Shown here: piece after piece, positions 28,855 to 32,917 of the stretch
Position numbering within the stretch: position 1 is the stretch's first letter
Layout: each line of letters starts with the position of its first letter
NCBI GenBank assembly: GCA_019119995.1
Contig: DWVY01000012.1
Span: 1 to 64,000 of the forward strand
From: Candidatus Mediterraneibacter faecavium
GTDB lineage: Bacteria; Bacillota; Clostridia; Lachnospirales; Lachnospiraceae
Direction: 5' to 3'
Length of the DNA: 64,000 nt
Position numbers and translations under genes: made by a program
The notes under the pieces: model-generated
What the model was told of the DNA's origin: nothing
What the model saw: the letters and a program-made list of their open reading frames with translations, nothing else
The model's database searches: none

Positions 28855-28883
28855 TTGACACCTTATATGACACCACATATAAT
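28855..28883 (+). promoter_or_regulatory. Consensus promoter and operator candidate for the hicAB locus
   Basis: TTGACA (28855-28860) and TATAAT (28878-28883) with a 17-nt spacer are a perfect sigma-A match. CTTATAT (28862-28868) and ATATAAG (28882-28888) form an inverted repeat around the -10, a plausible binding site for the HicB C-terminal DNA-binding domain. Confidence 0.8.
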
Positions 28884-28896
28884 ATAAGCAGGAGGT

Positions 28897-29001
28897 ATGC
28901 CAATTACAATACCTAAGCACGAACCAATTAAAAAAGTGTATGTAGAAATGGTAAGGCAGATAGTGGAAAGTGAGGCGAGCAATGATGAAAACGCTGGATG
29001 A
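28897..29001 (+). pseudogene. hicA: Remnant of a HicA/YcfA-type toxin (C-terminal 34 codons)
   Basis: The reading frame MPITIPKHEPIKKVYVEMVR continues to a stop at 28999-29001 and overlaps hicB by about 20 nt, as hicA genes usually do. The ITIPKH segment resembles the last strand of the HicA/YcfA fold. The usual start, the catalytic His strand (GSHxxF-like) and the first half of the roughly 60-85-residue toxin are missing; a stop lies just upstream. The ATG directly abuts GGAGGT, too close for normal initiation. The assignment rests on position and a short motif, so it is tentative. Confidence 0.5.
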
Positions 29002-29347
29002 TTATATGGCAATGTCCTATCGTATGGAAATTGTAGAAGACAAAGATGAAGGTGGCTTTGTAGTGTCCTATCCGGATTTGCCCGGCTGCATTACCTGTGG
29101 CGAGACAGTGGAAAGTGCGGTGGCAAACGCATTGGATGCCAAAAAAGTATGGCTTGAGGCAGCCCTTGAAGAGGGAGTGGAAATCCATGAACCGGACAGT
29201 TTGGAAAATTATTCCGGACAGTTCAAATTAAGAATGCCGCGAAGTCTGCATAGATTACTGGCAGAGCATTCTCAGAGAGAGGGAATAAGCATGAATCAAT
29301 ATTGTGTATATCTTCTTTCCAGAAATGACGCAGTATTTTCCAAATAG
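28982..29347 (+). CDS. hicB: HicB-family antitoxin
   Basis: This protein has 121 residues from the ATG at 28982. The N-terminal HicB fold (about 10-70) has the typical FVVSYPDLPGCITCGETVESA. The C-terminal ribbon-helix-helix (about 78-112: FKLRMPRSLHRLLAEHSQREGISMNQYCVYLL) binds operator DNA. HicB normally neutralises the mRNA-cleaving toxin HicA; here hicA upstream is only a fragment, so HicB looks orphaned. An in-frame GTG at 28970 is less likely than 28982/28985. A hairpin terminator follows. Confidence 0.88.
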   Translation: MMKTLDDYMAMSYRMEIVEDKDEGGFVVSYPDLPGCITCGETVESAVANALDAKKVWLEAALEEGVEIHEPDSLENYSGQFKLRMPRSLHRLLAEHSQREGISMNQYCVYLLSRNDAVFSK

Positions 29348-29366
29348 TGGATGCTGTCATTAACAG

Positions 29367-29411
29367 AACCCAACATAGATCTCAATGATGGAGACTGTGT
29401 TGGGTTTTGTA
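29367..29411 (+). terminator. Terminator after hicB
   Basis: AACCCAACA and TGTTGGGTT arms, with a partly paired interior, are followed by TTT. Confidence 0.75.
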
Positions 29412-29531
29412 TTTTCGGCTTATCTGAATCCTTCCGCTTTAGTTAAGAAGGCACCGGACCGCCCAGTATAAATGCAAAGCAGAAGAAAATTATCAAGAAC
29501 GTCAGAAATAATATCATTACAGTAGATGAGA

Positions 29532-29567
29532 AAGTTATTTTGATACATCAAAATAACTTCGCTTTTT
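29532..29567. terminator. Perfect 13-bp inverted repeat with T run
   Basis: AAGTTATTTTGAT (29532-29544) and ATCAAAATAACTT (29547-29559) are separated by two bases and followed by CGCTTTTTT. It has no obvious gene directly upstream and isolates the next promoter. Confidence 0.7.
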
Positions 29568-29664
29568 TGTCATTTATTCTAACCTTTTTATGAGAATGAA
29601 CTGACGGAAAGTGGAGCGATAGAAAAAACATAGAAAAAACAGACTAACTTTCGTGAATAAGTGA

Positions 29665-29695
29665 TTGACAAAAATATTCCGGGGGGGGGTATAAT
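29665..29695 (+). promoter_or_regulatory. Promoter with a G9 tract in the spacer (candidate phase-variable)
   Basis: TTGACA (29665-29670) and TATAAT (29690-29695) are both perfect, but the spacer is 19 nt and includes nine consecutive G (29681-29689). Loss of two G would give the optimal 17 nt. Homopolymer slippage could therefore switch the downstream surface gene, as shown for the porA promoter of Neisseria meningitidis. Confidence 0.8.
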
Positions 29696-29744
29696 TAGGT
29701 TCGGATAAATTTACCATCATTTATGCATGAAAGGAAAAAGAGAT

Positions 29745-32003
29745 ATGAAGAAAGGGAGAAAGATAATTGCTGCGGCAGCAGTACTGTCGTTGATTATGGG
29801 GATGCCGGTACGAGCTGCGGGCAATAGCGGAACGACACGGGATTTAGATGATTATGCAAACCTGTCAGTTGATGGAATATACATAGTCAGAAACGGAGAA
29901 CTGACAGGTGAGATGCCTGAAAATGTCAGTTATGATCTGCAGACCAATGTGCTTACACTCGATGATTATGTATCGACGCCTGATGCAGACACTTATGCGG
30001 GAATATCTTGCTTAAATATGGGTGAGGAATTTGTGATTCGCTTTGAGGGGGAGAATTCAATCACTGTACCGTCAGGTCAATTTAACTATAATGGGATTGT
30101 CTACGGAAGCTCCCTGACATTAGAAGGACCGGGAAGCCTGAACATATCGAATGTTGAGGGAGTGGGTATAGGATACAGAGAAGGTCTGACTATTGACGGT
30201 TGTACGATAAATATAACAGGAGCTCCGTCGGGAGAGAAAATGTTCTATGGTATAAATGGGGACTATACGTATACAACAGAAGCTGTTATCAATGATTCAG
30301 AAATTAATATCAGTTGCAGCAAGCCGAGCGGATCAGAGGCTTCAAATGCAGGGATAGATGTTCAGGCAGGAAACCTCACGGTACAGAATTCGGATATATC
30401 GATTAATCTTACAAATGGTAATATTTTTGGCTTAGCAGTCGGGTATACCAGAAGCGACGACACTGTTCTGGGTGGAACTGTCAGCATAGATGGTTCGGTG
30501 ATCAGATGCATTACGTCTACAGATATGCTTGACTTAGGAGATTACTATAATCATAATATGTATTTTTATAATATGAATAATGCTGATCAGCTTCATTATT
30601 ATACAAGTACGGACAATTCTTTTATAGAAAAAAGTTTCGATGAGACGTTTAGCCATAAGTACAATGCATATCCGGATCGCTATGATTCCAATACGAATAC
30701 GGTTATCTCGTCTACACCGCTTTCTGAGTATTGTAATCATCAGTGGGATGAAGGCGCGGTGACAACAGAGTCAACATGTGAAGAACCGGGGGAGAAGACA
30801 TATACATGTGCTCTTTGCGGTGAGACGAAGACAGAAGAAATTGCGGCTCTTGGACATACATGGGGCGAATGGACTGTGATCAAAGAGGCGGAATGTGCAG
30901 TGGATGGCGCACAGATCAGAACATGCAGCCTTTGCAATAAGACAGAAACCGAGTCCATCCCTCAGCTCGGACATGATTTTGTGATCGAGGTTGTGAAAGA
31001 GCCGACCTGTATGGATCCGGGGGAACAGCATAAAACCTGTTCAAGGTGCGGGCTGGTAATTGAGAATGAGCCGATTCCGGCAACAGGACATGACTATGAG
31101 TGGGTAGTTGAAAAGGAAGCAACATTCCATGAGGATGGTATAAGAAAAGGGACATGCAGCAACTGCGGTGATGTGATCACGGAAAGGATTCCGATGTTAA
31201 GCGAGTCGCATGAACATGATTTTAGTGGAAGAGAAGAAATCATCAAGCCTGCTACATGTACAGAAGTAGGAACAAAATACATTTACTGTACAGAACCAGA
31301 ATGCGGAGAATACATTCCGGAGATAATCCCGATGACAGCACATACACCGGGTGAATGGGAAACAGTAAAAGAAGCAACCTGTTCGGAAAACGGACTGGAA
31401 GAGAGAAACTGCACGGTTTGTGGCAATGTAATAGAAACACGCGTAACAGATACCCTTCCGCATACATATGACGAATGGGTGGTAACGGTTGAGCCTACAT
31501 GTACGGAAGCAGGAGTGGAGTCGGCATCGTGCACGGTGTGCGGAGAGACTGCCGTCAGAGGAATTAATCCTCTTGGTCATGATTTCGCAGAGTGGGATGT
31601 GACAAAAGAAGCGTCATGCACAGCGGACGGGGAAGAGACATCAACATGCGCGCGCTGCGGTGAGGTAAGCAGCCGAGTGATCGAAGCGGAAGGACATTCC
31701 TACGGTGAATGGGAGATCGTGAAAGAACCGACTCTTACGGAGGCAGGAGAACGTCAGACTGTATGCTCTGTATGTGGAGATGTAAAAACAGAGACGATGC
31801 CGAAACTGTCTGAACTGCAGCCGACTGTGCCGGATGGCGGATCAGGAAATGCAGATGCGGATAATAATGGGGCAGCCGCATCCGATACAAAGAGTGATAA
31901 TCCTCAGTCGCCGCAGACGGGCGATTCGGCTCCGATCGCACTGTGTGCCTTGGTAGTGGCAGTATCGGCAGGGGCGATCGTTGTGACAGCCAGAAAAAGA
32001 TAA
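29745..32003 (+). CDS. Cell-wall-anchored surface protein with nine CxxC repeats
   Basis: The 752-residue protein begins with a signal peptide (KKGRKIIAAAAVLSLIMGMPVRAAG). Residues about 35-325 are rich in Gly, Asn, Ile and Thr and look like a right-handed beta-helix (runs such as LTIDGCTINITG). From Cys330 there are nine repeats of 42-50 residues of the form H-x-[WYF]...C...G...C-x-x-C; a few lack a Cys. The end has a Ser/Asn/Asp linker, a sortase-type SPQTG motif (722-726), a hydrophobic segment and ARKR. The start at 29745 has AAGGA nine bases upstream; 29727 is less likely. Ligand or substrate is unknown; adhesion is a reasonable guess. Its promoter carries the G9 tract. Confidence 0.88.
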   Translation: MKKGRKIIAAAAVLSLIMGMPVRAAGNSGTTRDLDDYANLSVDGIYIVRNGELTGEMPENVSYDLQTNVLTLDDYVSTPDADTYAGISCLNMGEEFVIRFEGENSITVPSGQFNYNGIVYGSSLTLEGPGSLNISNVEGVGIGYREGLTIDGCTINITGAPSGEKMFYGINGDYTYTTEAVINDSEINISCSKPSGSEASNAGIDVQAGNLTVQNSDISINLTNGNIFGLAVGYTRSDDTVLGGTVSIDGSVIRCITSTDMLDLGDYYNHNMYFYNMNNADQLHYYTSTDNSFIEKSFDETFSHKYNAYPDRYDSNTNTVISSTPLSEYCNHQWDEGAVTTESTCEEPGEKTYTCALCGETKTEEIAALGHTWGEWTVIKEAECAVDGAQIRTCSLCNKTETESIPQLGHDFVIEVVKEPTCMDPGEQHKTCSRCGLVIENEPIPATGHDYEWVVEKEATFHEDGIRKGTCSNCGDVITERIPMLSESHEHDFSGREEIIKPATCTEVGTKYIYCTEPECGEYIPEIIPMTAHTPGEWETVKEATCSENGLEERNCTVCGNVIETRVTDTLPHTYDEWVVTVEPTCTEAGVESASCTVCGETAVRGINPLGHDFAEWDVTKEASCTADGEETSTCARCGEVSSRVIEAEGHSYGEWEIVKEPTLTEAGERQTVCSVCGDVKTETMPKLSELQPTVPDGGSGNADADNNGAAASDTKSDNPQSPQTGDSAPIALCALVVAVSAGAIVVTARKR

Positions 32004-32049: not shown

Positions 32050-32078
32050 TTTACAAAGTCATAGCAGCTGATTATAAT
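32050..32078 (+). promoter_or_regulatory. Promoter for the lipoprotein gene
   Basis: TTTACA (32050-32055) and TATAAT (32073-32078) with a 17-nt spacer lie in the gap after the surface-protein gene. Confidence 0.75.
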
Positions 32079-32143: not shown

Positions 32144-32917
32144 ATGAAGAAAAGAATGATCTGTGCGGTATTGCTCGTAAGCAGCCTTGCTGTTTTATCA
32201 GCATGTGGGAACAAGGTTGAGAATGCGGAAAAAGTAAGTGATACGGAAACACAGTCTTCAAACGACAGTGTTCCGGAATGGCTGGAAAGTTTCTACAACA
32301 GCAGCTATGAATACCGGAAGAGTACAACTGTATTAGAAAATGATATTGAGGATACGATTGCTGTTGTAGAGGGGAAAGTTGCAGCTTCTCCGTATAAAGA
32401 GTATGTAAAGATCGTCGAACCGGCCGGATCGGCATGGTCAGAAGCATGGTTCTATGGCGACGGAGACGAGATCAATGCGATCTTGAATACAGAAAACGGT
32501 TATGTCCGACAGGATACAAGACGTTCTTATCCTTACGGACAAGGCAGCGAGCTGTCCCTGTCAAAAGACCGCACGGAAGAATACAACGGTATATCCTGCG
32601 ATGTCTATACGGCGGAGTATACAGTCGACCTTGCAGAAGAGATCAATCAGGAAGTGGGAGAGACGATAATAACAGAACCGATTACAGCGGTCATATCACA
32701 GGAATATTATGTCGATCCGGAACAGGATCAGCTTCTATGTATGATCACGGATTCAACAGACCGTCAGGGAAAAACAGAGATTGCCAACAGGGTCATGAAT
32801 GACAATATTACGGCGGAAGAGGCGCAAAAGCTGGTTTCTGTTGATGAAGTGACGAAAGAAAAGCTGGAGATTCTCTCTTATGATGATTCTCTGGAAATAG
32901 AGATTCCGGAGATTTAG
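32144..32917 (+). CDS. Predicted lipoprotein of unknown function
   Basis: This 257-residue protein has a lipoprotein signal: KKRMICAVLLVSSLAVLSAC, with the acylated Cys at about residue 21. The mature part is acidic, mixed alpha/beta and contains paired regions (YEYRKSTTVLEND...YVDPEQDQLLCMITDS) reminiscent of outer-surface lipoproteins that bind lipids or peptides, but I cannot name a family. AAAGGGGG precedes the ATG. It has its own promoter and shares a bidirectional terminator with the converging sigma-factor operon. Confidence 0.8.
   Translation: MKKRMICAVLLVSSLAVLSACGNKVENAEKVSDTETQSSNDSVPEWLESFYNSSYEYRKSTTVLENDIEDTIAVVEGKVAASPYKEYVKIVEPAGSAWSEAWFYGDGDEINAILNTENGYVRQDTRRSYPYGQGSELSLSKDRTEEYNGISCDVYTAEYTVDLAEEINQEVGETIITEPITAVISQEYYVDPEQDQLLCMITDSTDRQGKTEIANRVMNDNITAEEAQKLVSVDEVTKEKLEILSYDDSLEIEIPEI

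Follow-up and report, generated by a model that had tools for sequence, protein, structure and literature searches.

The window, by which is meant the whole 64,000-nt stretch of DNA analysed here, carries a gene for a predicted surface protein whose promoter holds a run of nine G residues in its spacer. The features of the locus are as follows.

29665..29670, + strand: -35 box TTGACA, exact consensus, read directly from the sequence
29671..29680, + strand: fixed, non-G part of the spacer, AAAATATTCC, 10 nt, with the same letters in orthologue G014
29681..29689, + strand: G9 tract, the proposed variable element, abutting the -10 box (total spacer 19 nt, 29671-29689)
29690..29695, + strand: -10 box TATAAT, exact consensus, read directly from the sequence
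29745..32003, + strand: gene of the surface protein, 752 aa when translated from 29745, the likely start; the reading frame can open at 29727 (758 aa)
29745..29819, + strand: signal peptide of about 25 residues, called by inspection and with a crude hydrophobicity rule
29997..30407, + strand: sub-threshold Pfam match to the Cthe_2159 carbohydrate-binding family (17.3 bits against a cut-off of 25.8)
30732..31820, + strand: nine Cys repeats, eight CxxC and one C-x4-C variant (the ninth recognised by eye); limits approximate
31911..31925, + strand: PQTGD sorting-type motif, followed by a hydrophobic stretch and a basic tail
32050-32078: promoter-like site of the lipoprotein-like gene, TTTACA-17-TATAAT
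32144..32917, + strand: next gene, lipoprotein-like, 257 aa

The initial annotation had described two exact boxes around a 19-nt spacer with nine G, the only such run in the window, and a following gene for a secreted, sortase-type anchored protein with nine repeats. The letters and coordinates of the promoter are confirmed, the 64 kb contain no other run of seven or more G or C, and the signal peptide, the PQTGD motif with its hydrophobic tail and the repeats are all present. The gene is thus as described, but its start codon is likely to be the one at 29745 and not that at 29727, since a stretch resembling a ribosome-binding site precedes 29745 and the database copy of the protein has 752 aa. 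By its sequence the product is surface-exposed, as indicated by the signal peptide, the PQTGD motif and the sortases encoded in the genome (four matches above the Pfam cut-off). A protein search with residues 1-330 returned 19 proteins, none of them named; apart from its one sub-threshold match the window protein gave nothing above cut-off in Pfam, and no NCBIfam model, anchor models included, matched it. The lipoprotein-like gene is not necessarily under the control of any switch at the G tract, because it has a promoter-like site of its own. Upstream, a HicB-like antitoxin gene (28970-29347) adjoins the EF-Tu gene and has an exact promoter, TTGACA-17-TATAAT, at 28855-28883. An Rfam search of 29340-29760 with E-values up to 1 gave no match, and the predicted single-strand DNA fold of 29640-29745 is weak (z -1.73).

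Long G runs are rare in this genome, and both of them lie in promoters. A search of both strands of the 2.84-Mb assembly found two runs of eight or more G, the G9 of the window and a G10. Scaled to the genome, a first-order Markov model of the window predicts about 40 such runs; since the model also over-predicts runs of 5-7, long G runs are generally depleted. The G10 run (contig C60, L009) forms part of the promoter TTGACA-AAACAATA-G10-TAAAAT (eight nucleotides plus ten G, spacing 18), 122 nt upstream of the gene for a secreted repeat protein of 897 aa. This protein, too, has PQTGD and a hydrophobic tail at its end, and it scores 17.6 bits with the NCBIfam model LPXTG_anchor (cut-off 15.9). 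Thus, at both loci the homopolymer lies between the -35 and -10 boxes, and this sharing of promoter position and gene class by the two long tracts is the strongest single argument against chance. In addition, none of 100 shuffles of the window contained the 31-nt motif even with up to three mismatches allowed. The genome has MutS (MutS_V matches), which generally lowers slippage rates; a third MutS_V match (G000:C33:5853-6392) contains an in-frame TAG, which the two stronger matches do not.

The tract can be followed into orthologous genes. A search of 58 Mediterraneibacter genomes with the first 330 residues as query gave matches in four, the window's own counted, and both other orthologues with an intact 5' end have the tract. 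In G014, where the protein is 56% identical, the 10-nt fixed part is identical and is followed by G11, giving a spacing of 21; in G005 (42% identical) the fixed part is GAATTC, followed by G10, and the spacing is 16. The homologue in G045 is 5'-truncated, its N-terminal part being absent, and no run of six or more G lies upstream of it. As read from the assemblies, the tract is retained among the orthologues, whilst its length (G9, G11, G10) and the spacing differ between species.

The same arrangement recurs well beyond these genes. Among the 58 genus genomes, 13 contain the pattern TTGACA-N(4-16)-G6+-TANNNT, at 18 sites in all, with none for a reversed-pattern control. Two of the 18 are probably chance matches, since they lie in a genome (G009) with 289 G8 tracts and have spacings of 11-12. 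Across the family Lachnospiraceae the G7+ form was found at 62 sites in 42 of 397 genomes (reversed control, two sites), and the poly-C equivalent at three sites in three of the 397 (reversed control, one). Matches with an exact TATAAT are fewer: 15 sites in 12 of the 397 family genomes, counted by hand, and two of 398 genomes in a phylum sample, one of these being the window's own. A wider scan of named genomes, not a random sample, gave at least 126 sites in at least 119 stretches (L057-L175). The matches listed are mainly from gut metagenome-assembled genomes of Clostridia and Bacilli, with others from Saccharibacteria, spirochaetes, a few environmental metagenome-assembled genomes and some isolates. 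The cultured isolates with the motif include Blautia luti MSK.16.34 and Streptococcus henryi DSM 19005. One point of the initial annotation changes, namely that such switching would be unusual for a gut Clostridium: the host is a Mediterraneibacter of the Lachnospiraceae, and the motif is present in 42 of the 397 genomes of that family and in other, mainly gut, lineages.

Several observations accompany these searches. The 289 G8 tracts of G009, one of which is L184, are spread over 3.3 Mb and divided 211 to 78 between the two strands; most genus genomes have about ten or fewer G8 tracts, and the second highest count is 19. In G031 (L203, near 1501) a G9 run, read by eye, lies within the first codons of a reading frame whose start resembles a signal peptide and is a candidate for a translational, frame-shift type of switch within Mediterraneibacter. 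In gut Bacilli, neighbouring or same-genome paralogues each have a poly-G promoter of their own (L099, L103, L112, L131 and the pair L069/L087), and some of their tracts are one G apart (G10 and G9 in L099; G9 in L069 and G10 in L087). The genome G269 (L054) has a G7 promoter in three identical copies on three contigs, which suggests a repeated element. A search of viral contigs for the window promoter, that is, the same DNA with another tract length, gave no matches. A similar motif occurs in 14 viral contigs; the only pair alike on both flanks (L243/L248) has equal tracts, G12 and G12, and in a pair alike upstream only (L250/L251) the tracts are G8 and G10 and the fixed parts differ.

The position of the tract within the spacer is closely constrained. 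When a gap of 1 to 8 nt was placed between the G6+ run and TATAAT, the 58 genus genomes gave four matches (reversed control, one), of which one was an abutting site re-read (L027) and three had only six G; abutment on the -10 box is thus a feature of the motif. The converse search, starting from G tracts without regard to promoters, took one G8+ tract per genome (n=29, G009 excluded, window included). TANNNT lies directly 3' of six of the 29, as against 1.35% at random positions (binomial 2e-6); the window is one of the six, and one of the two of these with an exact TTGACA at 15-21 nt. Of the 76 distinct genus and family sites, 56 have a fixed part of 8-10 nt and 59 a spacing of 16-20. In a further 11 the spacing is 11-14, too short for a normal promoter, and these are probably chance matches.

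Among the 126 matches listed in the wider scan, of at least that many sites, spacings from 14 to 21 nt are represented by 2, 14, 19, 7, 31, 37, 12 and 4 sites respectively, so that 120 have spacings of 15-20 and only seven have 17. Ordinary TTGACA/TATAAT promoters have a spacing of 17 in 14 of 24 cases in the wider-scan loci listed and in 23 of 30 in a genus control restricted to 16-19; these sets supersede an initial sample of only five sites. The deficit, seven of the 57 spacings of 16-18 in the matches listed, gives p 3e-4 against equal thirds, in a test devised after the first 86 sites had been viewed and then extended to the 126 listed. The gap is also present in the fixed part, which is 7, 8 or 9 nt long at 25, 10 and 42 of the sites listed. 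In the genus and family lists the spacings are displaced towards 18 and 19 (14 and 21 of the 76 sites); no clear gap is seen there, 16 and 17 having eight each. The shortage of 17-nt spacings in the wider scan suggests that promoters in their assembled, majority state usually depart from the optimum.

The genes behind these promoters are also of a particular kind. Judged by a crude rule based on hydrophobicity, the first reading frame downstream is secreted-looking at 30 of 44 poly-G promoters as against three of 24 ordinary TTGACA/TATAAT promoters of the genus (Fisher 1e-5); one of these three is clearly a false positive. The wider set gives, among matches listed, 71 of 103 and three of 19. 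The exceptions to the secreted class include flagellar and pilus genes. In two Mediterraneibacter genomes (G042, L018:1501-2045; G049, L020:1501-2079) the promoter TTGACA-ATCC(T/C)ATA-G9-TAAAAT, with a spacing of 17, lies upstream of flgB, and in L018 FliE-like and FliF-like frames follow flgB. This locus is a candidate phase-variable flagellar operon. In G232 (L055:3-1388) the gene behind a G9 promoter with a spacing of 18 encodes a type II/IV secretion ATPase that contains an MshEN domain, and is a candidate for a pilus or secretion gene under phase variation.

The best explanation, to which we give a probability of about 80%, is that the nine G form the variable part of a porA-like transcriptional phase-variation (contingency) promoter. 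Slipped-strand mispairing at replication would add or remove G residues in the tract and so alter the distance between the boxes. At the window promoter, the loss of one or two G would raise expression and a gain would lower it; by analogy with known systems, expression would be high at spacings of 17-18, low at 19 and shut off from 20 upwards. A low state is predicted for the promoter as assembled, because nine G give a spacing of 19, two above the genus-typical 17. The benefit would be surface heterogeneity towards host, phage or competitors. For the window promoter we infer the slippage within the strain, the transcriptional effect and the benefit alike; the tract length given here is that of a consensus assembly, in which mixed lengths are invisible. 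Weighing against this explanation are the presence of MutS, the equal tracts of the viral pair L243/L248, the truncated G045 homologue with no tract, and the 11 of 76 genus and family sites with spacings of 11-14. The proposal of the initial annotation, a candidate phase-variable promoter, is supported as the best reading of the sequence comparisons by the second copy in the same genome, the orthologues with G9, G11 and G10, the association with secreted genes and the avoidance of 17 nt.

Two features of the motif are not explained by spacing and may reflect contacts upstream of the -10 box or the mutational origin of the tract: its strand bias and the base preceding it, which is C in 83 of the 126 matches listed and A or T in the other 43. 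They leave some room for an unlikely alternative, in which the G residues upstream of the -10 box are a fixed tuning element that sets promoter strength through sigma contacts or spacer shape, with a species-stable length. In its favour are the preference for poly-G over poly-C (62 against three sites in 397 genomes) and the strict abutment on the -10 box, neither of which spacing alone demands, and the preceding C. It accords poorly with orthologue lengths of 9, 10 and 11 that give spacings of 16 to 21, with the range of 8 to 15 across the 126 matches listed, and with the mostly secreted products of the genes, which resemble those of known contingency loci. The same strand bias and preceding C can be taken to favour a slippage switch that does not act through box spacing, the tract length altering regulator binding or promoter opening as for opc and tprL, and mechanisms of this sort are described in PMC7864442. 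Here, however, exact boxes with the tract wholly between them reproduce the geometry of porA and tp0126, and spacings cluster at 15-20 nt among the matches listed, so that this possibility is somewhat less likely again. A tract that is neutral or due to chance, or one introduced as an artefact of assembly (spurious poly-G, for instance), would fit the sites at contig ends (e.g. L014, L048, L054, L176) and the short spacings in the lists, but is highly improbable given a window tract about 29 kb inside a 99-kb contig, reversed controls of none in 58 genus genomes and two sites in 397 family genomes, and the motif in cultured isolates.

Several simpler readings are rejected. Chance is made unlikely by the shuffles, the count of two runs in the genome, the reversed controls and the TANNNT enrichment, and a sequencing artefact by the internal contig position and the isolates with the motif. 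That any G/C tract would suffice is contradicted by the three poly-C sites in 397 genomes, that a tract anywhere in the spacer would do by the offset search in 58 genomes, and a peculiarity of one strain by the genus, family and wider scans.

A broader proposal extends the porA-like switch from the window to the other genomes. Poly-G spacer switches would be a widespread and often multi-locus system of gut commensals (Lachnospiraceae, other Clostridia and gut Bacilli, with cases in Saccharibacteria and spirochaetes), controlling wall-anchored proteins, lipoproteins and, in two Mediterraneibacter species, a flagellar basal-body operon. The fixed part would have evolved so that the commonest tract, nine G, misses 17 nt, leaving the promoter low by default with one or two slippage steps needed to turn it on. 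We regard the odds on this proposal as about even. Slippage-driven expression switches of such a kind are best known from pathogens. If poly-G promoters do switch, abundant gut bacteria generate surface diversity through simple slippage, and this would have consequences for strain typing, for recognition by the immune system, for susceptibility to phage and for how metagenomes are read. The general question of whether commensals evolve contingency loci tuned to a low default would then become testable.

The mechanism itself is already known; among the titles and abstract openings listed from the open-access literature, the search yielded no description of poly-G promoters in Lachnospiraceae and no account of a spread of the mechanism among gut commensals. 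For gut commensals, phase variation is mostly treated as a matter of promoter inversion; a 2025 review (PMC11868660) notes a confinement of multi-locus phase-variable genomes to pathogens, which may stem from database bias.

The closest parallel is porA of Neisseria meningitidis, a surface-protein gene with a poly-G tract between its -35 and -10 boxes, for which PMC3639595 reports high expression with 11 G, about 2-fold lower with 10 G and 13-fold lower with 9 G. However, porA encodes a porin of a Gram-negative pathogen, its switching is proven where that of the window promoter is proposed, and the porA variants tested fall short of the best spacing, whilst the window tract gives 19, above 17. 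The poly-G tract of Treponema pallidum tp0126 is likewise between the boxes, with transcription best at a spacing of 17 (PMC7864442), although this is an OmpW homologue of a spirochaete pathogen and was tested experimentally. A further parallel is HPT_37 of the Gram-positive commensal Cutibacterium (Propionibacterium) acnes, a homopolymer placed by inference between the -10 and -35 boxes, with five or seven residues and expression differing between two strains; it differs in being poly-C at a metabolic gene, and its length change is judged by the authors to be slow and not active (PMC4746626). The pilus switch of Bifidobacterium breve shares with the switch proposed for the window a gut Gram-positive host, homopolymer replication slippage and a sortase-dependent surface structure, but appears to act on the reading frame of pilus genes and not on a promoter spacer (PMC9187656). 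Finally, the invertible promoters of gut bacteria (cited in PMC11868660) also provide promoter-level phase variation of commensal surface genes, by site-specific inversion in place of slippage.
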